Assembly (NCBI RefSeq): GCF_023370775.1
Contig: NZ_JAMCCQ010000001.1
Coordinates: 1,116,001-1,180,000 of the forward strand
From: Marivita sp. GX14005
Lineage (GTDB): Bacteria > Pseudomonadota > Alphaproteobacteria > Rhodobacterales > Rhodobacteraceae
DNA length: 64,000 nucleotides
Direction of reading: 5' to 3'
Shown here: one piece after another, positions 2,376-27,646 of the stretch
Layout: each line of letters starts with the position of its first letter
Numbering within the stretch: position 1 is the first letter of the stretch
Notes under the pieces: model-generated
What the model was told of the DNA's origin: nothing
Seen by the model: only the letters and a program-made list of their open reading frames with translations
The model's database searches: none
Program-made: the position numbers and the translations under genes

Positions 2376-2396
2376 AGGCAGGAACGGAGACAGCAC

Positions 2397-4959: not shown

Positions 4960-4969
4960 GGTCAAACCG

Positions 4970-6679: not shown

Positions 6680-6730
6680 CCTGTTCCACTACAGGCTCGG
6701 TTCCTTACAATAGACAATATCTTTCGGCAC

Positions 6731-8991: not shown

Positions 8992-9045
8992 CGCGGAAAA
9001 ATGCCACATGGCTATGCAATGACTGCCAAAGTTTGTTCATAATTG

Positions 9046-12000: not shown

Positions 12001-15000
12001 AGCTTCGCCCGGCTTTCGGATCGGCGCTATATCCTTGCTCCCGAGCGGGGGCGCGAAGGCTATGACATGCTGTGCCGCGATCTGCTCTCGCGCGGTCTGG
12101 TGCCAAGCCGTATCGCGCATTTCTGGGGGGTGACGCGGGATAGGCGCCACCGTCCGGGATCGAGTTTTTTCCACCGCGTGCAGGAGCAGGGTTTTTATTC
12201 GCTTCTTTTCCTGACGCAGGCCATCGCCGATGAAACACTGCCAAAGCCCAAACAGATCACGGTATTCACCACCGGCGCTGCATCTGTTGGTGACGAGCCG
12301 CTGGCAGAGCCCGAGAAGGCTGTTATTGCCGGTCCCGCCCGCGTTGCGCCGCGAGAGATACCGGGATTGTCGATCTCGACCCTCGATCTTGCGCTTCCGC
12401 CAAAACCCCGCACGCGTTTCTTTGGCCGTTCCGGAGAGAGCGCATACAGCGAGGCGATGGAACGTCTGAACAGGCAGATTCTCGAAGAGATGCTTGCTGC
12501 GCCCGGCTCTTCCATCGCCGCGCTTCAGGGGGAGCATCGCTACGAACGCAGATTGCGAGCAACCCGCCTGATCGAACGGGCCGAACCTGCGATCCGACCG
12601 GGCGGCGCCTATCTTGTCACCGGCGGGTTTGGCGGAATTGGCATGACCATTGCAAGATCGCTTGCCGCGCATAGATGCAAATTGCATCTGACAAGCCGAC
12701 AGGCCATGCCGCCGCGATCGGAATGGGACGGCTATCTGCAACGACATGCCCCGCATGACCGGATATCCCGCCGGATCGCGGCCGTTCGCGATCTTGAGGA
12801 TCGCGGAGCGACGGTGTTCTGCCATGTCGCCGATATCTGCAATCTGACTGAGATGTCCGCGCTTGTCGAAGACGCGAAAGCGCGCCACGGCAGGATTGAC
12901 GGAGTCATCCATACCGCTGGCGTGATGGAAGATGCGCCGCTCCTTTCCAAGACAACCGCATCGGTGGAGCGCGTTTTTGCCGCCAAGATCCATGGCGCGA
13001 AGGTGTTGGGCAAGCTATTCGCGGATGGAGAAACAGATTTCATCGCGCTCTTTTCCTCGTCGTCCACGCATATCGCACCGGCCGGACAGGTCGATTATGT
13101 CGCCGCGAACGAATATCTCAACGCGTTCGCTCAATCGCGCAAAGGGGGGCGAACCCGCGTCGTCGCGATCAACTGGGGCATTTGGGCCGATGTAGGAATG
13201 GCAGCCGATGCGCTGGCAGATCGGGCTGCGCCGGGAACATTCGAAACGATTGACCAGCCGCTTCTGCACCGAGCGGGTTTCGATCCTGCGGGAAACCGTC
13301 TGTTCACCGCGCGGTATTGCGATGATGACTGGTTCATCGACGAGCATCGAACACGCGACGGAGCCGCACTGTTCCCTGGCGCCGCGCATGTCACGCTTGC
13401 CGCGCAAGCGCTGAAGACGCAGGAGGATGTGCGCGCGTTCACCATACGTGACATGACGTTCCTGCGCCCGCTACATGTGGGTGATCGGGCGCAGCGCGAT
13501 GTTCGGGCGCGATTGGAGCGCCGCGATCACGGCTATCACCTTACCGTCAGCGCTGATTGCGAACTCAACGGCCAGAAAGGTTTCGCGCCCCTTGCTACGG
13601 CACAGCTCTCCCTGGCGCCCGTGAAGCAGCCCGGCCGGATCGATCCCGCCGCAATCCGGGCACGATGCACGGGGCGGGCTGCCGGCAAAGAGGGCGGCAA
13701 ACTCGACGCCGCCCAGGAAACGCAACTGCGGTTCGGCGCGCGCTGGAAAGTGCTCGACAGCTATTGCCTGGGAGACGGCGAAGGCCTGGCTGAACTGTCG
13801 CTGGGCGAGGTCGCGGCGCAGGACCGCGATTGGCTGATCCATCCCGCGCTGCTCGACATCGCCACCGGATGGGCGATGGAGCTGATAGAAGGCTATCGCG
13901 CGGAGCGTTTATGGGTGCCAGTGTCTATCGATACGGTTCACTTGCATCACCCCTTGCCAAACCGGATCGTCAGTTGGGTCCGGTCGGCCGCGCATAACCG
14001 GAGTGGTGGCGATACCGCGCGGTTCGATATTACGCTGGCGACCCCCGATGGCGAAGTCTGCATCCAGATCGAAGGATTTACCATCAAACGGCTTGAAGAC
14101 AGTTCGGTTCTGACTGCGCCGCTTCGCGTAAGCCCGTCGGAGTTCGAACCTGCCGAAGACCAGCGCGCGGAACAGCCTCTCTCCACAGCGGAGCAGCGGT
14201 TGCAATACAACCTGAGCCAGGGGATTCCGCCTGGCTTGGGCGCTGATGCCTTCGCGCGCGCGCTTGCGCTCGGCCAGCCCGAAATCGTCGTTTCGTCCCT
14301 CGATATCGAGGCGTTGACCGATCAGGCGGACAGGGCAGATGCGCAATCGAGCGTCCACAAGTTCGATCGCCCGAAACTGGAGGGGGCATATGTCGCTCCG
14401 CAAAACGATGTGGAACGGAACCTCGTCGCCATCTGGGAAGATCTGCTGGGTGTTCAGAATGTCGGTGTCGAAGACAGTTTTTTCGATCTCGGCGGTCACT
14501 CCCTGATCGCGGTTCGACTGTTCGCCCGGATCAGGAAGGTCTACAACGTCGATTTTCCGATTTCCGTTCTCTTCGAAGCCCCGACAATCCGCGCCTGCGC
14601 CGAGCTCATCCCGAACGAAAACGAAACTCCGACAAGCGGCGAAGCGCCCCGCAAGCCGCCTGCCCATGAGCGCCGTTTCAAGCATCTGGTCGCAATGCAC
14701 GATGGCGAAGGCGGTCCACAAACCCCGTTCTTCCTCGTCGCGGGTATGTTCGGAAACGTCCTCAACCTACGCCATCTCGCGCAGCTTCTGGGCACCGAAC
14801 GGCCGTTCTACGGGCTGCAGGCAAAGGGGCTTTTCGGCGATGAGGAGCCGCACCGTTCGGTCGAAGCGGCCGCGCGCGATTATATCGCCGAGATGATGCA
14901 GGTGCAGCCCAAAGGCCCGTATTTCGTTGGCGGATTTTCCGGCGGAGGGATCATCGCCGTCGAAATCGCCCGCCAACTGCGCGCCGGGGGCGCGGAAGTG

Positions 15001-15543
15001 GCATTGGTCGTTTTGCTGGACACGCCTTTGCCGCGCCGCCGTCCACTGTCTCGATGGGACCGGTTGTTGATCCAGTGGCATGAGTTGCGCCGCAAGGGGG
15101 TCGGTTATCCGATCGTCTGGGCGCGCAATCGCCTGCGATGGGAACTTCAGAAGCGCGATTATCCTCAGGACGATCCAGCCGGGCACGGCTTTCACAACGC
15201 GCGTATCGAAGCGGCCTTTCTGAAAGCTGTCGAGGCATATGAGGTCGCGCCGCTGGACGGCCGCATCGTTCTTTTCCGGCCGCCGCTCACGGGAACCTGG
15301 CGCGTCTCCGCTGGCCGCTGGGTCAATCATGAACGCGCTTACCTTTTCGATGACAACGACTGGGGTCAATACGCGCCACAGATCGAGGTGTTCGAAGTGC
15401 CGGGCGACCATGACAGCATGGTGCTGGAGCCGAACGTCCGCGTTCTCGCCAAGCAGTTGCAGGACGTGATCGTCAGAACCGAAGCGGTGATGAACGGGCA
15501 GGGCGAAGTGCTGCCCTTCCAATCGTCCGAAGCGGCGGAATAG
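9085..15543 (+). CDS. Type I polyketide synthase, one module: KS-AT-KR-DH-ACP-TE
   Basis: 2152 residues from the ATG at 9085, which has a ggagg-type site about 13 bases upstream. Domains in order: ketosynthase (about 12-440; Cys187 in TACSTS, His323 in HGTGT, His363 in KTNIGH); acyltransferase (about 545-850; Ser635 in GHSMGE, probably malonyl); ketoreductase with its structural half (about 950-1345; TGGFGGIG near 1179, Ser1325, Tyr1338, and MED at the LDD position); dehydratase (about 1405-1690; His1421, Asp1591 in HPALLD); ACP (about 1765-1835; Ser1806 in DLGGHSL); thioesterase (about 1880-2130; Ser1952 in GGFSGGG, His2109). All catalytic residues appear intact. There is no loading module and no enoylreductase, so it likely extends a chain handed over by the NRPS encoded at 16569, reduces and dehydrates it, and releases the product. 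A phosphopantetheinyl transferase must come from elsewhere. Confidence 0.93.
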   Translation: MTEQGTAPGYGAESDIAIVGMSVHVPGARSVTEYWRNLRDGVSSIKRQSEENLIAAGVAKALLRHPDYVPYAAPLDGFDHFDAEFFGLSPKDAAIMDPQHRQFLECAWEALEDAGHVPGRFSGRIGVFGGCGMGSYFYVNLCSNRDLVDETGLFLLRHTGNDKDFLTTRVSHIFDLAGPSISVQTACSTSLVAAHYACQSLLSGECDMALAGGVTIELPQGHGYLYKENEILSPDGQCHAFDHRAQGTVFGSGAGVVVLRRLADAVADNDHIWAVIKGGAVNNDGAAKAGYLAPSVEGQAAAIAEAQAMAGTTSDTIDYVECHGTGTYLGDPIEVSALTQAFRETADRIGYCRIGSVKTNIGHLDTAAGVASLVKASLALHNRQMPPSLGFEKPNPAIAFETTPFIVNDRLTDWPRRDHPRRAGVNSLGVGGTNAHLVLEEAPPRPASEPSDWPFQLLTVSGRSEAALDANCERLAAHLREHTGQPLPDIAWTLAQGRRAFEKRRIVVASDHEDAARLLEHKDARRVHSHSALSDPDIAFLFPGGGAQYVNMARDLYETEPVFADWMDRGFECLAAVESTDIRALWRPEPGREAAAEKALRKPSVQLPLIMIVEYALAQLWMGWGIAPSVLAGHSMGENTAACLAGVMSFEDCVGLVHLRGRLFDSVNEGGMVSVALPAAELKPMLSDALDLGAINAPGLSVASGPTGALEALERALSEKDVEFQRIPIDIAAHSRMLDPILDRFRDYLRSIDLRTPRIPLTSNLTGEFLTDDQATDPEYWVMHLRSTVRFASCLDTLARRKDRIYLEVGPGKALSALARQSVGIAAQQTISSLRHPDEDIEDDRHMLEVLGRIWALGGEFDWAQIWGDARRNRVPLPSYAFQRSRYFIEPAEPRIEPAPDFLTRIEKPEDWGWTPIWSRKYADTPIATMDDLGAIDPETWLVFMDDAGLARRAADRLIAAGHTVIELSPGDSFARLSDRRYILAPERGREGYDMLCRDLLSRGLVPSRIAHFWGVTRDRRHRPGSSFFHRVQEQGFYSLLFLTQAIADETLPKPKQITVFTTGAASVGDEPLAEPEKAVIAGPARVAPREIPGLSISTLDLALPPKPRTRFFGRSGESAYSEAMERLNRQILEEMLAAPGSSIAALQGEHRYERRLRATRLIERAEPAIRPGGAYLVTGGFGGIGMTIARSLAAHRCKLHLTSRQAMPPRSEWDGYLQRHAPHDRISRRIAAVRDLEDRGATVFCHVADICNLTEMSALVEDAKARHGRIDGVIHTAGVMEDAPLLSKTTASVERVFAAKIHGAKVLGKLFADGETDFIALFSSSSTHIAPAGQVDYVAANEYLNAFAQSRKGGRTRVVAINWGIWADVGMAADALADRAAPGTFETIDQPLLHRAGFDPAGNRLFTARYCDDDWFIDEHRTRDGAALFPGAAHVTLAAQALKTQEDVRAFTIRDMTFLRPLHVGDRAQRDVRARLERRDHGYHLTVSADCELNGQKGFAPLATAQLSLAPVKQPGRIDPAAIRARCTGRAAGKEGGKLDAAQETQLRFGARWKVLDSYCLGDGEGLAELSLGEVAAQDRDWLIHPALLDIATGWAMELIEGYRAERLWVPVSIDTVHLHHPLPNRIVSWVRSAAHNRSGGDTARFDITLATPDGEVCIQIEGFTIKRLEDSSVLTAPLRVSPSEFEPAEDQRAEQPLSTAEQRLQYNLSQGIPPGLGADAFARALALGQPEIVVSSLDIEALTDQADRADAQSSVHKFDRPKLEGAYVAPQNDVERNLVAIWEDLLGVQNVGVEDSFFDLGGHSLIAVRLFARIRKVYNVDFPISVLFEAPTIRACAELIPNENETPTSGEAPRKPPAHERRFKHLVAMHDGEGGPQTPFFLVAGMFGNVLNLRHLAQLLGTERPFYGLQAKGLFGDEEPHRSVEAAARDYIAEMMQVQPKGPYFVGGFSGGGIIAVEIARQLRAGGAEVALVVLLDTPLPRRRPLSRWDRLLIQWHELRRKGVGYPIVWARNRLRWELQKRDYPQDDPAGHGFHNARIEAAFLKAVEAYEVAPLDGRIVLFRPPLTGTWRVSAGRWVNHERAYLFDDNDWGQYAPQIEVFEVPGDHDSMVLEPNVRVLAKQLQDVIVRTEAVMNGQGEVLPFQSSEAAE

Positions 15544-15545
15544 CC

Positions 15546-16565
15546 ATGACCGATATTGTCGCCGTTATCCTGAATTACAAAACGCCCGATCTTGCGCTCA
15601 AGGCAGCGCGTTCCGTTGCCGCCGCGATGGAAGGTTTTGGAGGCGCGATCCTTCTGGTCGACAACGCCTCGGGCGATGGCTCGTTCGAGGCGATGCGCGA
15701 CGGCGTGGCGCGCGCGAAATGGCCCGCGCATCTTGACCTGCGCGTGCTGCAAACGGGACGGAATGGCGGCTTCGGCGCGGGCAACAATTTCGGCATCCGT
15801 GCCGGCTTGGAGACATGCCCCGGCGCGAAGTTCGTCTACCTGCTCAACCCGGATGCGGAGGTGGAGGCGGGCGGCATCGCGGCGCTCGTGAACCATCTTG
15901 AAATGCACCCCGAAGCGGCAATCGCGGGAAGCTGGATTTCCGGCGAGGATGGAGGCGACCATTGCAGCGCCTTTCGGTTGCCGTCCCTCGCCTCGGAATT
16001 CGAAGCGGCCATTCGCATGGGGCCAGTCACGCGAGTGTTGAAAAATTCTGTTTTGCCGCTTCATGTTCCGGATCGCTCCGGCCCGGTCGGCTGGATCGTC
16101 GGCGCATCGATGCTGGTGCGACGGGACGCGTTGGACAGGACTGGCCTGTTCGACGAAACCTTCTTTTTGTATTTCGAGGAAACCGATCTTTGTCTGCGAG
16201 CGCAGCGGGCAGGGTTCGAAGTGCATTTCGTTCGCGAGAGCCGTGTGTCGCATATCGGTTCGGTGTCAACCGGGATGGGTTCCTGGGCTCGGACGCCGCC
16301 CTATTGGTATCAGAGCCGCTGGTATTACTATTCGAAGAATCACGGGCGCGTTTTTGCGGCGGCGGCTACGCTTCTCAACGTGACGGGAACGCTGCTCTGG
16401 CGGCTACGGCGCCGTATTGAAAGACGGCCCAACACCGATGCCCCCCGCTTCCTGCGCGACATGATCGCCCATGATGCCCGCGCCCTTTTCAAACCCACGC
16501 CCAATGCCGCAATCCGGTCGATCAGGTCCCCGGCCGAGGCGCGTCTTCAAACCAGCATGGATTGA
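15546..16565 (+). CDS. Glycosyltransferase, family 2 (WbbL/rhamnosyltransferase-like)
   Basis: 339 residues, starting 2 bases after the PKS stop. The fold starts at VAVILNYKTPDLALKAARS and includes ILLVDNASGDGS, NGGFGAGNNFG and VYLLNPDAEVE; the last two are typical of the COG1216 rhamnosyltransferase-like group, with NPD supplying metal ligands. GWIVGASMLVRRDAL and FLYFEETDLCLRAQRAG are the family's acceptor-side blocks. The enzyme would add a sugar, possibly a deoxysugar, to a lipid-linked glycan, or possibly to the polyketide-peptide product, since it lies between the PKS and NRPS genes with 2- and 3-base gaps on either side and so appears to be co-transcribed with them. Confidence 0.9.
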   Translation: MTDIVAVILNYKTPDLALKAARSVAAAMEGFGGAILLVDNASGDGSFEAMRDGVARAKWPAHLDLRVLQTGRNGGFGAGNNFGIRAGLETCPGAKFVYLLNPDAEVEAGGIAALVNHLEMHPEAAIAGSWISGEDGGDHCSAFRLPSLASEFEAAIRMGPVTRVLKNSVLPLHVPDRSGPVGWIVGASMLVRRDALDRTGLFDETFFLYFEETDLCLRAQRAGFEVHFVRESRVSHIGSVSTGMGSWARTPPYWYQSRWYYYSKNHGRVFAAAATLLNVTGTLLWRLRRRIERRPNTDAPRFLRDMIAHDARALFKPTPNAAIRSIRSPAEARLQTSMD

Positions 16566-16568
16566 ACC

Positions 16569-19500
16569 ATGACATCACTCGATTGCATCATCATCGGCGA
16601 TGAGAGCCTGACCTTGCAATGTGCCGAAACGCTGCTTGCACGCAGGCACCGGTTGCGTGCGTTCGTGACGGATAATCCGGATCTTCTGCGCTGGGCCGAA
16701 ACGCGGGACATACCCGTGCAGCCGCACGGCCCTGATCTGGCGGACGCGCTGGCCGGTTCGCGCGTCGACTGGATTTTGAGCATCGCGAACCTTGCGCTGC
16801 TACCGCCCGAGCTTCTGAAGCTGGCGTCCAAGGGGTGCGTCAATTTTCACGATGGCCCTTTGCCGCGCCGGGCCGGGCTGAATGCGCCCGTCTGGGCGCT
16901 GATCGATGGGGAGACGATGCACGGTATCACCTGGCATGTGATCGAAAAGGGCGTGGATACAGGCGATATTCTGGTCACGCGCCGGGTCGAGATCACGCCT
17001 GACGATACCGCGCTGACGCTCAACGCCAAATGCTATGAAGCCGGGCTCAACAGCTTTCCCGACCTGCTGTCAGAGCTCGAAAACGGCCTTCCCGGGCGCC
17101 AGCCACAGGATCTGTCGGCGCGCTCTTACCACGCATTGAAGGACCGGCCGGAGGCGAACGGTCTGCTGGATTTCGCTCGATCCGCTGATACCGCCCTTCG
17201 GCTCGTCCGGGCTTTGGATCACGGTCCCTACTGGAATCCCCTGTGCACGCCCAAACTCTTGCTTGGCACGAAGATCGTTCACATCGGTTCGGCCAGGAAA
17301 CGCGCCAGCAGCGCCGCGCCGGGAACGGTGATCGATCTCGACAGGAACAGTTTGACGGTTGCCTTCGCGGACGGCGCATTGCGGCTATCGGATCTTCGCG
17401 GCACGACTGGGCAGGCGATCGATCCGCGCGGGCTTGTTGATCTCGGGCAGCGTCTGAGCGGGCCCGACCAAACGGCGCGAGACAGGATCTCCGAGGTGTT
17501 TCGAGGCTTGGCCGGAAAGGATGCGTTTTGGCGCCGGCAACTTGCGCAGGTTCGGCCGGTTGCCCTGCCCCTGAAATCCGGGGGTGGCGCGGGTTTGAAA
17601 ACCGAACCCCTCGTCGTTCCAGCGGAACATCTTGCCCCGGCTCTTTGCATTCTTGCCGAACACCTGTCGCCAGGCCCCGATGTGGGTCTGGCGTTCACCA
17701 ACCGTACGATACGGCAGTCCGAAACGTACGGTTTGGCCGCCGACTGGGTTCCGGTTCGGGCGGATCACTTGCAGGACGGCTGGCCGGAAATCCGGACGGG
17801 GTTCGCCGCCGATCTCATCGTTCGCGATCCTGCGCTTCATTCCTTCGAAACGCCCGCGCTCGGCCTATCCGACGATGCCGGTGCGATCTGCGAATGTGCG
17901 ATTACGGTCGAGCGCAAGGAAGGCCATATCGTCGCGCATATCGATGAAAGTCGCGTTTCGACCGAGTTCGCGGAGATCGTGCTGCGCCGTCTTCGCTGGA
18001 TCGCCGATCAGTTGGCGGACGGAAAACGCCCCGATGCGATCGATCCGCTGCCGCCGGGCGAACGCCGGAAAGTGATCGAGACGTGCAATGCGACCGAGCG
18101 CGCGATCGATGGCCCGCAGACGATGCACGCGGCCTTTGAGGCGCAGGTTGCAAAAACGCCGAACGCCGTCGCGCTCGTTCATCAAAATATGGCGCTGAGC
18201 TATGCTGCGTTGAACGAACGGGCCAATCGGATTGCGCATGTGCTGCGCGATCTGGGGGTCGCGCCCGAAGAGATCGTCGGCCTGCATTGCCGCCGCGAGC
18301 CAGACATGATCGCCGCCGCGCTGGGCGTGCTCAAGGCCGGCGCGGCCTACCTGCCACTCGATCCGGATTATCCTGCGGATCGGTTGGCGCACTACCTCAA
18401 GGACAGCGGCGCGCGCATCGTTCTGACGCAAAGCGGGATCGAACATGATCTTTCCGTAGACATTGCGGAGCGTATCAGTCTCGACCGCGATTCCCGGTTG
18501 CAAAATGCGGCGACCGGCGATCCGATCACCGAAGCCAGCGACGAAAATCTTGCCTATGTGATCTACACCTCGGGGTCCACCGGAACGCCAAAGGGCGTGA
18601 TGGTGGAGCATCGCAACGTGATGAATTTCTATGCCGCGATGGATGACGTCGTCCAGCCTGAGCCGGAGGCGGCGTGGCTCGCGCTGACAAGCCCAAGCTT
18701 CGATATCTCTGTGCTCGAACTGTTCTACACCATGGCGCGGGGGATCAAGGTTGTCCTGTCAGATTCCAACCAGCGCGACACGCTCTCGCGCCGCGCGGTG
18801 CGACAGGCTGGCACGGGAATGGAGTTTTCGATCTACTATTGGGGAAATGACGACGGCATTGGGCGCGACAAATATCGCCTGCTGCTCGACGGGGCGCGGT
18901 TTGCCGACGAAAACGGGTTCTGCGCCGTCTGGACGCCCGAACGTCATTTCCACGCGTTCGGCGGCCCCTATCCCAATCCGTCCGTCACCGGGGCGGCGGT
19001 CGCGAGCGTGACACGGAATATCGGGGTGCGCGCGGGTAGCTGCGTCGCGCCGCTGCATCATCCGGCGCGGATCGCGGAGGAATGGGCGGTGATCGACAAT
19101 CTGACCAACGGGCGCGCCGGGATCGGCCTCGCGAGCGGTTGGCAGCCCGACGATTTCATCCTCCGCCCCGAGAACACACCGCCCGCCAACAAGCCCGCGA
19201 TGTTTGATACGCTGGCGACGATCCGCAAACTTTGGCGCGGGGAGCCGGTGGCGTTTCCGCGCGGTGACGGAACGATGCACGAGGTGATCACCCAGCCGCG
19301 CCCGGTTTCGCCGGAACTGCCGGTCTGGGTAACGATCGCCGGCAATCCCGAAACCTGGCGCGAGGCAGGGCGGCACGGCGCGCATGTGCTTACGCATCTT
19401 CTGGGCCAGTCGATCGCTGAGGTCGAGCAAAAGATCGGCCTTTATCGCCAGTCGCTCCGCGATGCCGGGCATGATCCTGACGCGTTCAAGGTTACGTTGA

Positions 19501-21125
19501 TGCTGCACACCTGCCTTGCCGAAACGCGCGAGGCTGCACGCGATCTCGCGCGAGAACCGATGAAGGCATATCTTCGCTCGGCCGCCGGGCTCATCAAGGA
19601 ATATGCCTGGACCTTCCCGGCCTTCAAGAAGCCCGAAGGCGTCAAATCCGCGTTCGAACTCGACCTCGGTGATTTGGGAGAAGATGAGCTCGACAGTATC
19701 CTCGAATTCGCGTTCGAGCGGTATTTCAACGAAAGCGGTCTGTTCGGAACGATCGAAGACGCTCTTGCACGAACGCAGCAACTCAAGCGGATCGGCGTAT
19801 CGGAGATTGCCTGCCTGATCGATTACGGCATCCCTGCCGATCAGGTTCTGGACGGGCTGAAACCTCTGGCCGAAGTCGTGCGCCTGTCCAGAACGGAAGA
19901 ACGGGAAGAGACCGATTTTTCACTTGCCGCCATGCTGGAACGACACAAAATCACTCATCTTCAATGCACGCCCTCCATGGCGCGGATGATCCTGATGGAC
20001 GACGATACGCGCACGAGACTTCGCGGTGTGAAGCATATCATGCTCGGGGGGGAGGCTTTGCCCGGCACGCTTGTCGCCGATCTGGCCGAAGTCACCGATG
20101 CAAGCCTTTCGAACATGTATGGGCCGACGGAGACGACGATCTGGTCCTCCTGCTGCGAAGCCGATGCGTCGGAACAGGTGGTCAGTATCGGCAGGCCCAT
20201 CGTCAACACGCAGCTTTACGTCCTGAACGATGCGATGGCGCCCTTGGGCTTCGGCGAAAAAGGCGAGCTGTGGATCGGCGGCGCCGGGGTCGTGCGCGGC
20301 TATCTCCATCGGGAGGGCCTGACATCCGAGAGGTTCAGGCCCAATCCCTTCGGGGCGGGGCGGATTTATCGCACCGGCGATCTGGTGCAGCGCGAGACAG
20401 ATGGATCGCTGAACTTCCTCGGCCGCGCTGACACGCAGATCAAGCTACGCGGATATCGGATCGAACTGGGGGAGATCGAAACGGAGTTGCGGAAATCGGA
20501 AGGGATTACCGATGCGGTGGTTCTGGCCCGCGAGGATGTGCCCGGCGATATGCGACTGGTCGCTTATATAACAGGGCAGGGCGAGATCGATCCGCAATCG
20601 CTTCGCACGGCGCTGGCGGCCCGCTTGCCTGACCATATGGTGCCGGCGCGGTTCGTGATGCTGGATCGGTTCCCGATGACCCCGAACCAGAAGATCGACC
20701 GCGCCGCGCTCCCCGCGCCCGGTGCGGTTCCCGTTCGAAAAGCGCCTGTCGAAACCGCGCCCGTGGCAGATGGGATCGCTGACGCGGATCTTCGCTCGCA
20801 GGTCGCCGATGTCTGGTCCGAAGTGCTTGGCGTGCCAGATATCCCACCGGATGCGAATTTCTTCGCTTTGGGCGGGCATTCCCTGCTCGCTGTGCAGGCG
20901 CATCGCATCCTGAAAAGCCGGCTCGATCTCGAACAACTTTCGATCACCGACATTTTCCAGTTCCCGACTCTTCAGGCTTTGTCCGACAAGATCGCCCGGT
21001 TCGGAGCGCGCCCGGAAGCGCAAAAGGTTGCCCGGATCGAGGAGGCATCGCCGAAAGATCGTGCCCGGCAGCGCGCCGATGCCATGGCCCGCCGCAGGGC
21101 GATGCGGGCACGGCGCCCGGCCTGA
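16569..21125 (+). CDS. Nonribosomal peptide synthetase: formyltransferase, condensation remnant, adenylation with embedded luciferase-like monooxygenase, PCP
   Basis: 1518 residues. Residues 1-300 are a formyltransferase with the catalytic set of Met-tRNA formyltransferase: Asn92 and His94 in NFH, Asp130 in GVDTGD. Residues about 310-510 resemble the second lobe of a condensation domain (DAFWRRQLAQ), but no HHxxxDG is visible. The adenylation domain starts about 525; core A3 is YTSGSTGTPKG (666), A4 FDISVLELF (711), A5 NMYGPTE (1182), and the A10 lysine is Lys1375. Between A4 and A5 (about 751-1105) sits a flavin-type luciferase-like monooxygenase, opening MEFSIYYWGNDDG. I recall this family as TIGR04020 (MupA/Atu3671). 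The PCP serine is Ser1438 in LGGHSLLAV. There is no TE. Specificity residues aligned by eye to GrsA give D-I-L-Q-M-G-M-I-W-K, near the glycine code. The likely role is to load, formylate and oxidise glycine as a starter for the PKS. Confidence 0.92.
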   Translation: MTSLDCIIIGDESLTLQCAETLLARRHRLRAFVTDNPDLLRWAETRDIPVQPHGPDLADALAGSRVDWILSIANLALLPPELLKLASKGCVNFHDGPLPRRAGLNAPVWALIDGETMHGITWHVIEKGVDTGDILVTRRVEITPDDTALTLNAKCYEAGLNSFPDLLSELENGLPGRQPQDLSARSYHALKDRPEANGLLDFARSADTALRLVRALDHGPYWNPLCTPKLLLGTKIVHIGSARKRASSAAPGTVIDLDRNSLTVAFADGALRLSDLRGTTGQAIDPRGLVDLGQRLSGPDQTARDRISEVFRGLAGKDAFWRRQLAQVRPVALPLKSGGGAGLKTEPLVVPAEHLAPALCILAEHLSPGPDVGLAFTNRTIRQSETYGLAADWVPVRADHLQDGWPEIRTGFAADLIVRDPALHSFETPALGLSDDAGAICECAITVERKEGHIVAHIDESRVSTEFAEIVLRRLRWIADQLADGKRPDAIDPLPPGERRKVIETCNATERAIDGPQTMHAAFEAQVAKTPNAVALVHQNMALSYAALNERANRIAHVLRDLGVAPEEIVGLHCRREPDMIAAALGVLKAGAAYLPLDPDYPADRLAHYLKDSGARIVLTQSGIEHDLSVDIAERISLDRDSRLQNAATGDPITEASDENLAYVIYTSGSTGTPKGVMVEHRNVMNFYAAMDDVVQPEPEAAWLALTSPSFDISVLELFYTMARGIKVVLSDSNQRDTLSRRAVRQAGTGMEFSIYYWGNDDGIGRDKYRLLLDGARFADENGFCAVWTPERHFHAFGGPYPNPSVTGAAVASVTRNIGVRAGSCVAPLHHPARIAEEWAVIDNLTNGRAGIGLASGWQPDDFILRPENTPPANKPAMFDTLATIRKLWRGEPVAFPRGDGTMHEVITQPRPVSPELPVWVTIAGNPETWREAGRHGAHVLTHLLGQSIAEVEQKIGLYRQSLRDAGHDPDAFKVTLMLHTCLAETREAARDLAREPMKAYLRSAAGLIKEYAWTFPAFKKPEGVKSAFELDLGDLGEDELDSILEFAFERYFNESGLFGTIEDALARTQQLKRIGVSEIACLIDYGIPADQVLDGLKPLAEVVRLSRTEEREETDFSLAAMLERHKITHLQCTPSMARMILMDDDTRTRLRGVKHIMLGGEALPGTLVADLAEVTDASLSNMYGPTETTIWSSCCEADASEQVVSIGRPIVNTQLYVLNDAMAPLGFGEKGELWIGGAGVVRGYLHREGLTSERFRPNPFGAGRIYRTGDLVQRETDGSLNFLGRADTQIKLRGYRIELGEIETELRKSEGITDAVVLAREDVPGDMRLVAYITGQGEIDPQSLRTALAARLPDHMVPARFVMLDRFPMTPNQKIDRAALPAPGAVPVRKAPVETAPVADGIADADLRSQVADVWSEVLGVPDIPPDANFFALGGHSLLAVQAHRILKSRLDLEQLSITDIFQFPTLQALSDKIARFGARPEAQKVARIEEASPKDRARQRADAMARRRAMRARRPA

Positions 21126-21131
21126 CCGGCA

Positions 21132-22061
21132 ATGCGTCTTTTCGCAAGTCTCGTCGTTGTCGTGGCGCTGGGCCTGAGCGCACTTTGGCTGCGCGCGCCC
21201 GACCGGCTGGCGGCGGAAGAGATGGCGGCCCGGTATCAGAAGCCGCTTCCCGCGCCGGGCGGGCCGCTCGATGTGTTTCACCTCGGCCATTCGCTCGTCG
21301 GGCGTGACATGCCGGCGATGCTGGCGCAACTGGCGGGGCACGATCACGCATCGCAATTGGGATGGGGCACGCCGCTCAAGGCGCATTGGGAAGACAGCCT
21401 GCCGATCGAGGGCTTTGCCACGGAAAACGCGCATCCCCACTATCGCGACGCGCGGGAGGCGCTCGAAAGCGGTGCGTTCGATGCGTTCGTTCTGACTGAG
21501 ATGGTCGAGATCGAAGCTGCAATCGAGTATTTCGAGGCACCGGACTACCTTGAAAGATGGGTCGGTCTTGCCCGCGCGGGCAACACCGATATGCGCATTT
21601 ATCTATTCGAGACCTGGCATGCGCTCGACGATCCGCAAGGCTGGCTGACGCGGCTCGACACCGATCCGGCACGATATTGGGAAGGTGTGCTGCTGGCGCG
21701 GGCTTTGGCGAATGAAGCGTCCGGCGCGATTCACGTGATCCCGGCGGGGCGCGTTCTGGCGGAGTTCGTGCGACGGATCGAGGGGATCGGCGGGTTGGAC
21801 GGTGTTCAAAGCCGCTCCGATCTGTTCGCGCGGCTCGACGATGGCTCTGTCGATCCGCTGCATCTCAACGATCTTGGCGCGTATCTGATCGCGTTGACCC
21901 ATTACGCCGTGCTGTATCACCGCTCGCCCGAAGGTCTGCCAAGGCAGCTTCGGCGCGCCGATGGTACGCTTGCCGATGCGCCGGGGCCAGCTGTGGCGAG
22001 CCTGATGCAGCGCACGGCCTGGGACGTGGTGCGTGAATTGTCCGTCACCGGCCTGCCCTAG
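21132..22061 (+). CDS. Secreted SGNH-hydrolase-like protein
   Basis: 309 residues, beginning 6 bases after the NRPS stop, so probably in the same operon. The N-terminus has a hydrophobic segment (LFASLVVVVALGLSALWL) that is a signal peptide or anchor. The mature part shows SGNH-like blocks: VFHLGHSLVG early, where HSL replaces the usual GDS, and DPLHLNDLGAYL late, with the Asp-x-x-His pair of block V. Such proteins include esterases and polysaccharide O-acyltransferases of the AlgX/AlgJ type. It might attach or remove an acyl group, possibly the polyketide-derived one, on the glycan outside the membrane. Function not established from sequence. Confidence 0.65.
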   Translation: MRLFASLVVVVALGLSALWLRAPDRLAAEEMAARYQKPLPAPGGPLDVFHLGHSLVGRDMPAMLAQLAGHDHASQLGWGTPLKAHWEDSLPIEGFATENAHPHYRDAREALESGAFDAFVLTEMVEIEAAIEYFEAPDYLERWVGLARAGNTDMRIYLFETWHALDDPQGWLTRLDTDPARYWEGVLLARALANEASGAIHVIPAGRVLAEFVRRIEGIGGLDGVQSRSDLFARLDDGSVDPLHLNDLGAYLIALTHYAVLYHRSPEGLPRQLRRADGTLADAPGPAVASLMQRTAWDVVRELSVTGLP

Positions 22062-22200: not shown

Positions 22201-23535
22201 ATGCTGTATTTTCAATCGCTCGATGAGGTGCTTTCCGCGCTGAAACGCCGAATCTGGTTGATTGTCGCGATCACGCTTATCGGCTGCGTCGTTTCGGTGG
22301 TCGTCGCGTTGCTGCGCGAGCCCGTCTACAACGCCATAGCGGTTGTTCAGATCGAGGATGCGCAGGTCGCCGGCACCAATACAAGTGCAGGCGCGATTGC
22401 CGAATCCCGCGCGAGCCTCGATGCGCGGCGCACGGTGCGGCTGATCGAACAGCGCGTGATGTCGCGCGGCGCGCTTTTCGAAATCATGGACACGCATGGC
22501 TTGTTCAACGACGATCCGGCGATGACCCCCATCGACCGGCTGACGGCCATGCGCGAGTCGGTGAGCATTGAGGCGATCTTGGCCGGCGAGGCTTGGCAGC
22601 CGAACCAGTCCGTGTCGGGAATGGTGATCGAGGTCAATCTCAACGATCCTCAAAAGGCCGCCGCGGTCGCGAATGATCTGTTGGGTCGCGTGATGGCCGA
22701 AGCGCGGGCGCGCAGCGTGGATCGCGCGCAGTTCGAGCTTGAGTTCTTTGATACGGAAGAGGCGCGGATCCGTGAACAGATCGCTGCGGCCGAGGCTGAA
22801 ATCGCTGAATTCAAAAGCGCGTCGGCCGATGTGCTTCCGGCAAATATCGCCGTGCTACAAGGGGAATTGACCACGCTGAACACGTCTTTGCTGACGCTGC
22901 GACAGCAGATCCTGAGCCTTGAATCCAACAGCAGCCGCGTGCGCCCCGAAGCGCTGGCGCGGCAGGTCGGTGTTCTTGAGGATCAGATCGCGCTGATCGA
23001 GGCGCGTATCGCCGAAATAAACGCGATGCTCGCACGCGCGCCATCGGTGGAGCGCGAACTCGCGGCGCTGGAGCGCGAGCTATCGCGGTTGAACGAACAA
23101 TTCACCGTCATCGCGCGCCGCAAGGCCGATGCTCAGATGAGCCAGAGTCTCGAACAGCAGAGGCAACTGGCGCGGTTCGAAGTGCTGGAACGGGCGATTG
23201 AGCCGGTTTATCCGATCTCGCGCAGCAAACGATCCATTGCGATGCTCGGCGGGGTCGCGAGCCTTCTGGTCGCCATCGGCATCGCGTTCCTGCTTGAAAT
23301 CCGGAACCCGCCGATCCGCAATGCCGCGCAGATGGAGCGTGCGCTGGGCGTGCGGCCAGTGATCACCGTGCCGCATCTCGGCCCCGTGCGCAGCGTTCGG
23401 GGAACGGGCAAGGATCGGCGTTCGAAGTTCGGCTGGGGCGTGATCCTCGCCCTTCTGGCGGGATTGCTCGCTCTCATCGCCAAACCGCTTGGCGAGCTTG
23501 GCGGGATGAATTTCTCGCCGCGCAACGCTCAATAG
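22201..23535 (+). CDS. Wzz/GumC-type polysaccharide co-polymerase (chain-length determinant)
   Basis: 444 residues. An N-terminal membrane helix (about 19-40, LIVAITLIGCVVSVVVALL) is followed by a long periplasmic part with coiled-coil (about 170-340, rich in Glu, Ala and Leu heptads). A second helix follows a proline-containing junction (VYPISRSKRSIAMLGGVASLL, about 337-362), as in PCP proteins that set glycan length. A further hydrophobic segment near the C-terminus (WGVILALLAGLLALIAKPLG) is unusual. No kinase domain is fused; the partner kinase is the convergent gene whose 3' end overlaps this one by 7 bases. Confidence 0.88.
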   Translation: MLYFQSLDEVLSALKRRIWLIVAITLIGCVVSVVVALLREPVYNAIAVVQIEDAQVAGTNTSAGAIAESRASLDARRTVRLIEQRVMSRGALFEIMDTHGLFNDDPAMTPIDRLTAMRESVSIEAILAGEAWQPNQSVSGMVIEVNLNDPQKAAAVANDLLGRVMAEARARSVDRAQFELEFFDTEEARIREQIAAAEAEIAEFKSASADVLPANIAVLQGELTTLNTSLLTLRQQILSLESNSSRVRPEALARQVGVLEDQIALIEARIAEINAMLARAPSVERELAALERELSRLNEQFTVIARRKADAQMSQSLEQQRQLARFEVLERAIEPVYPISRSKRSIAMLGGVASLLVAIGIAFLLEIRNPPIRNAAQMERALGVRPVITVPHLGPVRSVRGTGKDRRSKFGWGVILALLAGLLALIAKPLGELGGMNFSPRNAQ

Positions 23536-24428
23536 GCGTAATCGCCAAGTTCGGGCTGATCGGCCATGTTCAGCACGACGCCGAGCAGGGGCACCGTTTC
23601 GCCAAGCCGTCTTTCGGTTTCCTTGATATCGTTGGCGCGCGTCTTGCCCCCGCCGGCCACGATAAGAAGCGCGTCGAAATGCGGCCGCATCGCGAGAACA
23701 TCATCGTTTACGAGCGCCGGCGGCAGATCGAACAGCATCACATCGGGTTCCAGCAAAGCCTCGATCTTCTTCAGCGCGAGTTCGGTCGCCGGATCCTGCA
23801 AGAGTTCGGCCGCGTAAGGTTCGGCGAGCCCATTGAAGCCGATGGCGACATGCGCGCCTGCCGAAATGTCGTTCGGAGCAAATCCCTGCAGATGCCGCAC
23901 GGGAGAAATGTCGCCGCGCAGCATGTCGGACATAACGCCGGGGTCGCGGACGCCGAAAATGCGGTGCAGCGCCGGGTTGCGCATGTCCAGATCAAGCAGG
24001 ACGGTCCTGCATCGTTCCTGACGCGACAGGCTGATGGCGAGGTTTGCGGCCGTGAATGTCTTGCCGCACCCCTTGGTGGGCGAGGTGATCGCAACGCGCC
24101 GCCAGCCGTTTTCGGCAAGCGCCTGCAACATGCGCGTGCGCAGGATGTCGAACCGGGTATGCGCGGGATCGTCCCGTAGCGCTGTGACGATATGCTGCTT
24201 CGCAAGGCGCGGAATGTCGAGGGTGAACCGGTCCAGCGAGTGCCAGAGCGCTTCGCTATCGGGCAGAGGTTCGGGCGCGGGCGGTTTTGCCAGGACCAAG
24301 GGCTTCGAAGGATGTTTTGTCTTTGGCGCCGCCGCGGGTTTTGGCGCGCTCGCGCTGTCACGCTCGGGCGCGCGTTCGGGCATCGCCTCACGACGTTTGC
24401 GGCGCTGGAACTTGCGCTTTTCGGTCAT
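23529..24428 (-). CDS. CpsD/CapB-type tyrosine-kinase-like ATPase
   Basis: 299 residues. Bacterial tyrosine kinases of this kind bind the co-polymerase and control polysaccharide assembly by cycling phosphorylation. Walker A is SPTKGCGKTFTAANLA (about residue 110), Walker A' is TVLLDLDMRNPAL, and Walker B is VMLFDLPPAL. The N-terminal 60 residues are basic and proline/alanine-rich, unlike the kinase core. The C-terminus ends DYAY, giving only two tyrosines where many kinases carry a tyrosine cluster. The gene runs opposite to the wzz-like gene and overlaps its end by 7 bases, an odd arrangement for a functional pair. A 127-base leader (24429-24555) separates it from the upstream fused oxidoreductase gene. 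Confidence 0.85.
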   Translation of the reverse strand: MTEKRKFQRRKRREAMPERAPERDSASAPKPAAAPKTKHPSKPLVLAKPPAPEPLPDSEALWHSLDRFTLDIPRLAKQHIVTALRDDPAHTRFDILRTRMLQALAENGWRRVAITSPTKGCGKTFTAANLAISLSRQERCRTVLLDLDMRNPALHRIFGVRDPGVMSDMLRGDISPVRHLQGFAPNDISAGAHVAIGFNGLAEPYAAELLQDPATELALKKIEALLEPDVMLFDLPPALVNDDVLAMRPHFDALLIVAGGGKTRANDIKETERRLGETVPLLGVVLNMADQPELGDYAY

Positions 24429-24555
24429 GTTTCACCTGCTCGGCGCATAGGGAGCTTTCCGATTTTCATCGCGCATAAGGGCAGCGTTTATCCCTAGTGA
24501 CACCCCAATCTGTCAAAAATACGTCCGTTTCTGGGGGATTGTTGAGGCCGCACGG

Positions 24556-26664
24556 TCAGAATCCAAAGAGGTTCGCCTTTCCGATCGCCTTTTCGATGAA
24601 GGCGGATTTGTCCGTTTCCGGGCGCCAGCCCAACTCACGTTTCGGCTTGTCGTTCACGAAAGCCGATAGATGCGCGCGGCTCTTCCAATCGACAAGGGAG
24701 GGACGGCTCAGGCCTGTGCGCCCAAGCACGCGGGTTTTCAACTGATGTTTGATCGCATCGGCGGCCCAGAACATCGTCAGGTTTCCGGGGCTGACCCTGA
24801 TCCGCGCACCGAGCGCGGTGTGGATCGCATCGAAATAGCCTCTGGCGGACAGCATCGGCTCCCCGATCAGGTTATAGCTTTCGCCGTCGATGCCGGGCGT
24901 TTCTCCCACCAGGATCAATCCTTCGGCAACATCGTCGATCAACACGAAGGGCAGGATGTTGAGCCCATTGCCCCAGATCCGCACCGCGCCGGCCCCGTGC
25001 CATCGCCCGATGCCCCAATGTTGCAGTGGCCCGCCCGGCCCGACGACGATCCCCGGCCGAGCGATGACGAGGGGCAAGCCCTCTTGCCGGTGCATATCCA
25101 GCAAACGCCTTTCACATTCCGCTTTCGAGCGCGCGTAGAGATTGCGGTCGCTCATGTCGTCGGCAAAGCCCGTGTCTTCGGTGATCCGGCCCCGGGGGTC
25201 CGACATATCGTAGCTGGCAATCGTGCCGGTGTAGACGAGTCGCTTGACGCCGGCGCTCCGGCACGCCTCGGCGATACGCACGGCCACGCCGACATCATGT
25301 TCGAGCGCATCCTGCCACGTGCCTTCAAGCGAGCGGGCGAGGTTATAGACCACATCGATCCCCTGCATCGCATCCGCAAGCGCGGACTTGTCGTAGAGCG
25401 AAACGCCCACGGTCTCGACTTCGTCGGGCAGGTCGGGGAACGGGCCGGACGCGCCGCGGCTGAGCACACGCACGTCCTGCCCCTTGGCCACAAGCGCACG
25501 CGTGAGAGCGCGCCCGATGAAGCCCGTGCCGCCGATCACCATCGCCGTCGGTTTGGGGTTTCGCGTTTCGGGCTTTGGCCGTGCCGGCTGCAGATCCCTT
25601 GCTGGAACGTGCGACAGGATCCGATCGAGCGCATCCATCACCTCGACCGCGCTTTCGCCCGAAAAACGCCGGTCGGGCGGCGTGCCTTCGCGCAGGCTTT
25701 GGTAAATCGTTTGCGTCATCCCCCGGAAGCTTTGCGCGTAGGGGGATTTGCGGTTGAGCGAGAGGGTCTGGACAGCTGTATTGCGCAGCCCCTCGCGCAG
25801 ATGTTGCCAGCTTTGGTCGAGCCGCCTGCGCAGCGGGTTCAGGACCAGATCGGAGGCGTTTTCCCGTTCGACCGTCAGTGTATCTGCAGCGAAATCGAGC
25901 CGCGCGCGCCCCGACGATCCTCTGACGGTGAGCGACCTGTCGTCGATGATCTCCACCGTCGAGATCGTGAGCGTCAGATCGACGCCTCCGGCCTGCGCCA
26001 TGATGCGCCAGGTTTGCTGGCGCGTGTCATCGCCGGGCAGATCGACCGGCTTCGAGAGGTGAACCGCCTCTATCTCCGGCGGGCCGAACAGATCGACGAC
26101 GAAGCCGGCGAGATGCGGCCCGAGTTCCAGCAGGAGGTTTTTTGGCTCGCGAAGTGGCCAAATGCCGTAGGGTCCGGAGCGCAGCGGGGCAAAGGGCAGA
26201 CACCAATGCACCTCGGCACTCGACACGCGCCCGAGATCGCCCTGGCTCAGCATCGACCGAAGCCGGCGGTAGGCGGACAGGCCCATGAAGTTGTGCCCGG
26301 CATGGAACCGCACGCCGTTTTCTTCGGCTGCGGCGAGCATCTCTGCCGCTTCTGAGCAGGAGGTCGCAACGGGCTTTTCAACAAGAACATGCAGACCCGC
26401 GCGCAGGCATCGCAGTGTAATCGCATGGTGCAGCTGCGGCGGCGTGAGGATATGCGCGGCATCGCACAGGCCGGCATCGAGCAGATCGCCCAGGTCCGTA
26501 AAGGCAGGCACACCCAGCCGCCGCGACAACCCCTCGGCGGCGGGCTTCGACGGGTCGCAAACTGCCGCGATTTCCACCCCGTCGGTGGCGCGCAGCGCGT
26601 CGGCGTGCCAATCGGCGATATAGCCTGCGCCGATGAGGGCGACCCGCATTTTGGAAGATGCCAT
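24556..26664 (-). CDS. Fusion protein: Gfo/Idh/MocA oxidoreductase plus NAD-dependent epimerase/dehydratase
   Basis: 702 residues, about the sum of two ordinary enzymes. Residues 1-345 are a MocA-type NAD(P) oxidoreductase: VALIGAGYIADWHADAL dinucleotide motif, VLVEKPVA with the family's EKP, and FHAGHNFMGLSAYRRL. After a proline-rich linker (about 350-370), residues 371-702 form an extended SDR/epimerase: MVIGGTGFIGRAL, NLARSLEG, and catalytic YARSKAE (Tyr-x-x-x-Lys). Both halves look intact. The pair probably carries out successive steps on one nucleotide sugar. The same two families occur as separate overlapping genes farther upstream in this operon (29813-30937 and 28893-29825). Start: ATG at 26664; a second ATG five codons in is possible. 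Confidence 0.88.
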   Translation of the reverse strand: MASSKMRVALIGAGYIADWHADALRATDGVEIAAVCDPSKPAAEGLSRRLGVPAFTDLGDLLDAGLCDAAHILTPPQLHHAITLRCLRAGLHVLVEKPVATSCSEAAEMLAAAEENGVRFHAGHNFMGLSAYRRLRSMLSQGDLGRVSSAEVHWCLPFAPLRSGPYGIWPLREPKNLLLELGPHLAGFVVDLFGPPEIEAVHLSKPVDLPGDDTRQQTWRIMAQAGGVDLTLTISTVEIIDDRSLTVRGSSGRARLDFAADTLTVERENASDLVLNPLRRRLDQSWQHLREGLRNTAVQTLSLNRKSPYAQSFRGMTQTIYQSLREGTPPDRRFSGESAVEVMDALDRILSHVPARDLQPARPKPETRNPKPTAMVIGGTGFIGRALTRALVAKGQDVRVLSRGASGPFPDLPDEVETVGVSLYDKSALADAMQGIDVVYNLARSLEGTWQDALEHDVGVAVRIAEACRSAGVKRLVYTGTIASYDMSDPRGRITEDTGFADDMSDRNLYARSKAECERRLLDMHRQEGLPLVIARPGIVVGPGGPLQHWGIGRWHGAGAVRIWGNGLNILPFVLIDDVAEGLILVGETPGIDGESYNLIGEPMLSARGYFDAIHTALGARIRVSPGNLTMFWAADAIKHQLKTRVLGRTGLSRPSLVDWKSRAHLSAFVNDKPKRELGWRPETDKSAFIEKAIGKANLFGF

Positions 26665-26677
26665 CCGCTTTGGCCCC

Positions 26678-27646
26678 CTATTTATACTCGATTATTTCCA
26701 TTTGCGCATGGCGCAGCCGCCGCCAGTGATAGCGTATCATCCCGATCACGTTGGGAAATTTCGATAGTGTCAGAAAAACCGCGTGGTGCATCGCCTCACG
26801 CGGCGGCAATCCTTCTCGCCGCAGCCCAAGCGCAGCCTTCAGATAGGACAGCAGGTATATCGCCAGCACCAGGAGAGGAAGCCAAAGCGAGACGAAAGTG
26901 CCGAGAACGGCGGTGATCGGCAGGATCAGTCCGAAAAGCCAGCCGCGCAAGCGTTCGCGTCTGAAATACTCAGGATGAAGCGCGCCGACCTGCGCAAAAC
27001 CATGCCCTGTTCGCTCTGCCCGCTTCCACCATTGGGAGAACCGAAACGCGTTGCCGTCATGCTGCGCCATTGGCGCCGTGATGCGAACCAGCCGCCAGCC
27101 CGCCTTGCGCAGACGGTTGCAGATCTCATCGTCCTCCGCCGCGATTACCTGTGGGTCGAACCCGCCGACAGCGTCGAAGGCGGCGGCGCGCAGCATCATG
27201 TTGCCGCCGCAGGTCTCGATCTCTCCAACCGGGCGTTTCCACTCGAAATCGGACATCTGGCTATAGACCGTCGTATTGCGGTGAAGCTCCGCCTGCTGGC
27301 CGGTGACAAGGCCAAGGCCGTCATCGTCCCGCATCGCGGCTTCGGCCTGCCGGAGCCAGTCTGGCGCCATGATGCAATCACCGTCGAGGAACTGGACCAT
27401 CTCGGCCCGGTCACCATGGCGTCCGAGCGCGGCATAGCCCTCATTGCGCGCGCGGGCGGCGGTGAAGGGAACGGTCATGTCGAGCGCCACCACTTCGGCC
27501 CCTGCCGTGCGAGCGGCCTCCACGCTGTTATCGGTCGATCCGCTATCGACATAGACGACACGCCGCGCCTGCGGCATGACGGAGGCGAGCGAGGCAACGA
27601 GCCGCGCGCCTTCGTTGCGCCCGATGAGAACGACATCGACACTCAT
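26678..27646 (-). CDS. Glycosyltransferase, family 2
   Basis: 322 residues. VDVVLIGRNEGARLVASL, VVYVDSGSTDNSVEAAR and VQFLDGDCIMAPDWL (DxD-type) form the GT-A donor site; GGNMMLRAAAFDAVGGFD is the family's acceptor-side block. A C-terminal pair of hydrophobic segments (about 235-275, LPITAVLGTFVSLWLPLLVLAIYLL) predicts membrane attachment. Start and the stop of the upstream GT4 overlap by 4 bases (27643-27646), and the fused oxidoreductase begins 13 bases downstream, so this belongs to the leftward polysaccharide operon. Acceptor and donor sugars cannot be told from sequence. Confidence 0.88.
   Translation of the reverse strand: MSVDVVLIGRNEGARLVASLASVMPQARRVVYVDSGSTDNSVEAARTAGAEVVALDMTVPFTAARARNEGYAALGRHGDRAEMVQFLDGDCIMAPDWLRQAEAAMRDDDGLGLVTGQQAELHRNTTVYSQMSDFEWKRPVGEIETCGGNMMLRAAAFDAVGGFDPQVIAAEDDEICNRLRKAGWRLVRITAPMAQHDGNAFRFSQWWKRAERTGHGFAQVGALHPEYFRRERLRGWLFGLILPITAVLGTFVSLWLPLLVLAIYLLSYLKAALGLRREGLPPREAMHHAVFLTLSKFPNVIGMIRYHWRRLRHAQMEIIEYK

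Follow-up and report, generated by a model that had tools for sequence, protein, structure and literature searches.

The window, the whole 64,000-nucleotide stretch of DNA analyzed here, encodes a 1518-residue protein that is best explained as a formylglycine loading module for a polyketide synthase (PKS) encoded alongside it; we put the probability of this reading at about 0.6. It is based on the domains of the protein, their catalytic residues, a glycine-type adenylation code, the loss of one half of a condensation domain and a nearly strict pairing with the PKS. The enzyme is real and fairly widespread, and it probably activates glycine, adds a formyl cap, oxidises the capped residue and hands the unit to the nearby PKS. 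Formylglycine starters and monooxygenases embedded between the A4 and A5 motifs are each known, and their combination in one module has not been reported in the literature searched.

Domain organization of the starter protein

The features of the starter protein and its surroundings are listed below, where FT stands for formyltransferase, LLM for luciferase-like (flavin) monooxygenase, A for adenylation and PCP for peptidyl carrier.

6731..7636, + strand: GT2 glycosyltransferase (domain scan)
7618..8991, + strand: Wzx-type flippase, Polysacc_synt_3 (domain scan)
9085..15543, + strand: type I PKS, KS-AT-KR-DH-ACP-TE (ORF from TTG 9043)
15546..16565, + strand: GT2 glycosyltransferase between PKS and starter (domain scan)
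16569..21125, + strand: starter protein, 1518 aa, FT / C-lobe relic / A with LLM between A4 and A5 / PCP (ATG start)
16569..17438, + strand: FT domain, N- and C-terminal parts, Asn92/His94/Asp130 (Pfam and alignment)
17505..18113, + strand: relic, C-terminal half of a condensation domain with the HHxxxDG half missing (hhalign)
18135..18779, + strand: A core part 1, up to and including A4 (Pfam and alignment)
18825..19877, + strand: LLM flavin monooxygenase insert, TIGR04020 (NCBIfam; 6ket match)
19920..20711, + strand: A core part 2, A5-A10, with most of the glycine-type code (Pfam, NCBIfam, alignment)
20799..20987, + strand: PCP, Ser1438 (Pfam and alignment)
21036..21122, + strand: basic C-terminal tail (sequence comparison)
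21132..22061, + strand: 309-aa protein without a Pfam family, shared by some of the loci
22201..23535, + strand: Wzz-type chain-length protein (domain scan)
23529..30937, - strand: ParA/CbiA-type ATPase, MocA-epimerase fusion, GT2, GT4, epimerase, MocA oxidoreductase (domain scan)

In the starter protein, Pfam identified Formyl_trans_N at residues 53-165 (70.3 bits, cut-off 26.1) and Formyl_trans_C at residues 196-287 (27.5 bits, cut-off 21.1), an AMP-binding match split in two with its best stretch at residues 523-737 (297.4 bits), Bac_luciferase inside this split at residues 767-1076 (162.8 bits), AMP-binding_C at residues 1302-1375 and PP-binding at residues 1411-1473. Pfam, NCBIfam and profile alignment thus confirmed the preliminary description of this DNA, which had seen an FT, a condensation remnant, an interrupted A domain and a PCP in a single protein. 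In PDB, the full-length protein matched LgrA chains best.

The interruption of the A domain by a segment of flavin monooxygenase type was likewise confirmed in position and family. The insert lies past A4 (FDIS, Asp712) and ahead of A5 (MYGPTETTIW from residue 1183), and TIGR04020, the family which had been named for a domain search, matched residues 753-1103 (469.9 bits, cut-off 244.45). The nearest solved relative of the insert is the LLM domain of PuwE (PDB 6ket, E 1.5e-97); a flavin site is predicted, as judged only from the family score and the likeness to this domain.

When the FT domain alone was compared with solved proteins, a set that does not contain CongA and OzmO, its nearest relatives were ArnA (2.7e-21), Fmt (5.1e-19) and sugar formyltransferases, followed by LgrA (6.5e-11). 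Taken by itself, this comparison does not place the domain among the FTs of NRPSs; a role as sugar-tailoring formyltransferase was nevertheless rejected, as the fusion to A-PCP decides. The features of an F-A-PCP initiation module are present, namely an FT with its catalytic triad, an A domain and a PCP with its serine, and no working condensation domain upstream. On these sequence features, the FT is very likely to formylate PCP-bound glycine.

The region between FT and A domain (residues 289-508) gave no Pfam or PDB match with the window protein alone. A profile of 46 such remnants was compared by hhalign with 10 condensation domains excised around HHxxxDG from 12 loci, and a probability of 96.7 was obtained (E 4.5e-10); five of five column shuffles gave 0.1 each and the reversed profile 0.6. 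The Pfam Condensation family matched 2 of the 46 remnant homologues at E ≤ 1. Since the relic aligns with template columns 201-473, downstream of the HHxxxDG of the template, the FT occupies the place of the first half of the condensation domain, which can be seen as a trace of module evolution. The condensation-like remnant without HHxxxDG that had been described corresponds to the C-terminal half of such a domain. The presence of a complete condensation domain was rejected on the basis of Pfam and of the profile alignment, which covers the C-terminal half only.

The relatives of the starter protein were collected by a scan of genome contigs, from which the best 80 of 484 loci were kept (judged by title, 73 from Rhodobacterales, 6 from Hydrogenophaga and 1 labelled Nocardioides). 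All 80 loci contained the FT, both A parts and the LLM; a search for proteins sharing such domains had been proposed earlier. For residue counts, 88 proteins could be aligned out of 94 sought (the window protein, the 80 loci and 13 others); L064, L065, L088, L090, L130 and L133 had no frame passing the motif test and were left out, and at most 87 of the 88 are independent, as L138 and L074 are one contig. Asn92, His94 and Asp130, on which the claim of an intact FT had been founded, are present at these positions and kept in 87 of the 88 homologues, the lone exception most likely being L135, where no FT was found. The PCP that had been described is supported by the PP-binding match and by a phosphopantetheine serine conserved in 88/88. 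Over the matched stretches, the mean pairwise identity of the LLM (0.76) exceeds that of the FT (0.52) and of the two A parts (0.61-0.65).

The A code of the window protein reads DILQMGMIWK. Homologues vary at only 3 of the 10 positions, and the pattern DILQ[MFLYA]G[ML][IV]WK holds for 88/88, with DILQMGMIWK in 45, DILQFGMIWK in 23, DILQLGMIWK in 10, DILQYGMIWK in 7 and three single variants. All 88 codes were read as glycine on the basis of DILQLGLIWK, which we take to be a glycine code, and glycine is the substrate predicted for the A domain with high confidence.

Partner polyketide synthase and surface-polysaccharide setting

The PKS gene, which the preliminary description did not contain, lies two genes upstream of the starter gene with a GT2 gene between them. 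Its start looks likelier to be the ATG at 9085 than the TTG at 9043. The enzyme is a type I cis-AT PKS in which the catalytic residues of KS, AT and ACP are present, and twelve catalytic positions were identical in 83/83 full-length frames (out of 92 sought; the KS Cys and AT Ser motifs formed part of the selection).

To quantify the pairing, we surveyed the family with one genome per genus (295 in total), searching for the FT part at E ≤ 1e-40 and for the PKS part at E ≤ 1e-60. The former was detected in 105 and the latter in 108 genomes; 105 had both, 3 the PKS part only, none the FT part only and 187 neither. In two of the three PKS-only genomes (G158, G198) the lone match stops close to the contig end on the FT side, and in the third (G068) it begins at the first bases of the contig. 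With an FT part in 105/295 genomes, rarity of the protein within the family was rejected. This frequency contrasts with a 2022 review which, in the part available, describes F domains as very seldom encountered and lists three peptides made with them (PMC8949500).

Among 108 FT copies, the PKS was located at most 3 kb upstream on the same strand in 101 cases, downstream on the same strand in 2 and on another contig in 5. Over 90 loci, in which one contig was entered twice (L074 = L138), the PKS was found upstream on the same strand 82 times, divergent 5 times (including Shinella, Aminobacter and Rhizobium) and downstream 2 times, and was cut by a contig end once; as orientation varies, the pairing survives rearrangement. 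A KS was present in 75 of the best 80 of 484 loci, and the five loci without it (L012, L015, L025, L073, L086) are contig-end cuts.

The strongest case for a transfer of the PCP-bound unit to the KS is made by colinear gene orders. In Methylobacterium bullatum, FT-A-LLM-T is followed directly by the PKS, and in Aliiroseovarius sp. M344 by KS-AT-KR-DH-ACP-C-A-T-TE, a readable assembly line. Most loci are PKS-first and hence not colinear, which counts against a transfer from starter to PKS. All in all, the gene arrangement makes it highly probable that the starter protein primes the PKS. The term "starter module" used in the preliminary description is well supported by inference, since the catalytic half of the condensation domain is missing, an FT can act only on an amine that is free and a PKS is almost always encoded next to it. 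The C-terminal tail was alike in the seven Rhodobacterales and Hydrogenophaga tails compared, and this basic segment is a possible docking helix to the PKS. Mirror-tree correlations of the PKS with the starter domains (0.45-0.78) and of the GT2 gene (0.16-0.65) were given no weight, because genes of one genome correlate anyway.

The setting in a polysaccharide locus, noted before, was borne out by genes for a flippase and a Wzz-type protein as well as several glycosyltransferases and enzymes that modify sugars. The GT2 gene between PKS and starter was found in 80/80 of the best 80 of 484 loci, and in rhizobial loci it is not next to the pair. At least three of nine polysaccharide gene types of the window occurred in 64/80 and at least one in 76/80 of these best 80 loci, a count which used the window's own genes as queries, favours near kin and has no random-locus control. 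Among the four loci without window types, L057, L059 and L091 have sugar or glycosyltransferase genes of other kinds, those of L091 beside unrelated genes. In Shinella, Aminobacter, Paracoccus, Ruegeria and Hydrogenophaga, too, the pair has polysaccharide-type genes next to it. The Aliiroseovarius locus, which is surrounded by denitrification genes, is not plainly a polysaccharide locus and counts against a glycan setting. Overall, the starter protein links an assembly line with loci for surface polysaccharides, in bacteria that are marine or plant-associated.

Further genes recur next to the pair. A 234-aa gene family was present in 63/80 loci (best 80 of 484) with its median place directly past the starter gene, and a scan of one member identified it as an Sfp-type PPTase. 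A PPTase is annotated right after the starter in Ruegeria, Shinella and Aminobacter and about 9 kb further in Paracoccus; in the genome of the window, matches to the PPTase family lie elsewhere. The 309-aa protein encoded behind the starter gene appears SGNH-hydrolase-like by eye. The 702-aa protein in which a MocA-type oxidoreductase is fused to a sugar epimerase (24556-26664, - strand) recurs in 37/80 of the best 80 of 484 loci. The region 274-3263, before the polysaccharide cluster, contains genes for flagella and motility (flagellin-like, FlgI, MotA). Long antisense ORFs of the window are presumed to be side effects of its G+C content.

Comparison with known systems and proposed reactions

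LgrA (linear gramicidin), PtxE, CongA and OzmO, which we presume to be the F-A-PCP initiation module of oxazolomycin, carry an N-terminal FT, an A domain and a PCP as in the window protein. The window starter differs from these four by the monooxygenase in its A domain and by the condensation C-lobe relic between FT and A, and its line has one PKS ending in a TE. No CongE/OzmP-type cyclodehydratase was noticed among the neighbours covered by the domain scan. According to the sections available of the respective reports, PtxE (phthoxazolin; PMC5764310) and CongA (conglobatin; PMC4504003) are F-A(Gly)-PCP modules that provide the formylglycine start of an oxazole polyketide and feed a KS; like the window starter, they are predicted to be glycine-type and feed a PKS.

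With respect to the insert, the closest arrangement is that of MtaG and MelG (myxothiazol, melithiazol), in which, as far as the excerpts of the sources show, a flavin monooxygenase is also located between A4 and A5 of a glycine A domain. MtaG and MelG are terminal, chain-extending C-A-Ox-PCP-TE modules. The window starter shares their type of A4/A5 LLM and the glycine-type code, without a complete condensation domain and without a TE. In SolF (solanimycin), the monooxygenase is inserted into a glycine A domain between A8 and A9; SolF, MtaG and MelG extend a chain, and the portions of the sources at hand make no mention of an FT for them. The SolF monooxygenase is described there as leading to alpha-hydroxyglycine, and MtaG and MelG as hydroxylating the glycine alpha-carbon with subsequent cleavage (PMC10204066). 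The PuwE domain (puwainaphycin) sits between PKS and NRPS modules, whereas the LLM of the window lies inside the A domain; the excerpt available proposes a 2-hydroxy acyl chain as its product (PMC4219810). Members of TIGR04020 in several PKS lines are, in the part of the source available, hydroxylases or Baeyer-Villiger-type oxidases (PMC8739492).

The preliminary description had regarded the combination of an FT with an A4/A5 monooxygenase as new. This holds insofar as the literature searched, with subscription journals mostly outside its scope, contained no description or characterised case of a module that unites an FT with an embedded LLM; it does not hold for the proteins as such, which NCBI already names 'MupA/Atu3671 family FMN-dependent luciferase-like monooxygenase'. 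The search found no literature on Atu3671, and what it gave on NRPS-PKS lines of roseobacters, on oxygenases of formylglycine and on interrupted A domains did not lead further.

In the reaction sequence we propose, the A domain would load Gly onto the PCP, the FT would formylate it from formyl-THF, and the LLM would hydroxylate the glycine alpha-carbon with reduced FMN. The KS would accept this unit and add one C2 (several if iterating), KR and DH would leave an enoyl chain, and the TE would release or transfer it. If one C2 is added and the hydroxyl kept, an example product would be 4-formamido-4-hydroxybut-2-enoyl. Two proteins, a loading protein and a PKS, would then form a compact system that brings a formyl group and an embedded oxygenase together on one PCP-bound glycine. 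Alpha-hydroxylation of glycine by the LLM is, by analogy, somewhat favoured; for its action on this substrate, likewise by analogy, an N-acyl cleavage in the style of MtaG/MelG would waste the formyl group, which counts against it.

Precisely this cleavage is assumed if the module provides a glyoxylyl starter, with the formyl group serving as a disposable cap. MtaG/MelG, the closest parallel for an A4/A5 monooxygenase that acts on glycine, are described in the accessible text as cleaving an N-acyl-alpha-hydroxyglycine to leave a two-carbon glyoxyl unit; there, however, cleavage releases the chain, whereas here a PKS follows, and solanimycin B and skyllamycin retain alpha-hydroxyglycine according to the part of the source available (PMC10204066), so that we consider a glyoxylyl starter improbable. 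A plain formylglycine starter, with an LLM acting on the polyketide chain or nowhere rather than on PCP-bound glycine, appears slightly less improbable, though still unlikely. The PuwE LLM, the nearest solved relative, is proposed in the excerpt to hydroxylate an acyl chain (PMC4219810), and solanimycin A indicates, in what is available of its description, that such a hydroxylation can be skipped (PMC10204066); the embedding of the LLM in the A domain and its better conservation compared with the surroundings argue for action on the loaded glycine. An FT and a flavin monooxygenase would in principle also be capable of N-hydroxylation to an N-formyl-N-hydroxyglycyl unit, a metal-binding group, but LLM-type enzymes in the literature, as far as available, act on carbon, and this outcome is very improbable.

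The fate of the formylglycine-primed chain is less clear-cut than its start. For roseobacters, we propose that the GT2 enzyme, together with the polysaccharide genes, uses the product as a glycoside or glycan substituent, and the chances that the end product is a glycan or glycoside are about even. A more far-reaching and less probable reading sees the pair as an NRPS-PKS line dedicated to the cell surface in which an acyl unit primed with N-formyl-alpha-hydroxyglycine is built into, or glycosylated for, exopolysaccharide; this reading covers about one third of the sampled Rhodobacteraceae genera, some rhizobia and Hydrogenophaga. If true, it would define a type of polysaccharide decoration that an assembly line produces, with a starter that combines an FT and an embedded oxygenase. 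A similarly possible, though likewise not the probable, outcome is a diffusible small molecule (signal, antibiotic or metallophore), with the polysaccharide genes as mere neighbours in a variable island. Published FT-A starters, in the sources as available, yield peptide or polyketide natural products, and the sugar genes around the PKS/starter pair are far more variable than the pair itself. On the other hand, polysaccharide-type genes recur in the five genera named above and beside a related Deinococcus pair, and no recurring receptor or efflux gene was noticed among the neighbours inspected.

Distribution and relatives of the starter protein

The starter gene is accessory, which counts against the loading-module reading: 12 of 16 genomes of the same genus hold it, in one case split over two contigs, and four have no full-length copy. 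Rhizobia, Methylobacterium, Paracoccus and Hydrogenophaga also have PKS/starter pairs, and where the surroundings were inspected these mostly lie close to polysaccharide genes. At the phylum level, 19/398 genomes contained any LLM above the TIGR04020 cut-off, not all of them with an FT. In a tree of the A-LLM region (28 rows), the 23 FT proteins fell into two groups, and a Deinococcus protein on a long branch was placed beside one of them; a single FT clade was not rejected (p-AU 0.06).

Relatives of the type C-A(LLM)-T (L130, L135, Streptomyces L159 and Nostoc L160) share the A(LLM) core with 44-47% identity. In L130, L135 and Nostoc L160, a complete condensation domain replaces the FT, L130 reading SHAILDS and L135 HHIAADG at the place of HHxxxDG; the N-terminus of Streptomyces L159 was read by its HHxxxDG motif only. 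L130 and Nostoc L160 have a methyltransferase as well. The L130 protein (11042-16621) is a C-A(LLM)-methyltransferase-T protein encoded divergently to the same kind of PKS and is possibly a sister of the FT form. On a plasmid of Deinococcus actinosclerus, a member of another phylum (L162, 18189-29014), A-LLM-T is followed by KS-AT-KR-DH-ACP-C, and this pair is flanked by capsule and polysaccharide genes. Neither FT nor condensation domain was found by Pfam in the A-LLM-T protein, whose N-terminus of about 350 residues belongs to no Pfam family.

The locus labelled Nocardioides marinus DP1N28-1 (L076) has genes and a gene order like those of Leisingera/Phaeobacter and 54% identity to the window; its genome is possibly mislabelled or mixed. 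For Phaeobacter inhibens, the PKS Inhi_1972 and the NRPS Inhi_1974, one tag apart, are mentioned without a product in the excerpt available (PMC4062626), a spacing that fits the PKS-GT-NRPS trio of the Phaeobacter locus L087. A VPLPA-CTERM exosortase XrtD is encoded near the starter in Ruegeria (L139, 1-798) and Aliiroseovarius (L163, 19911-21512). In the genome of the window itself, contig C6 shows a partial Condensation match near an AMP-binding match at about 4554-7407, perhaps a second, unrelated NRPS-like locus.
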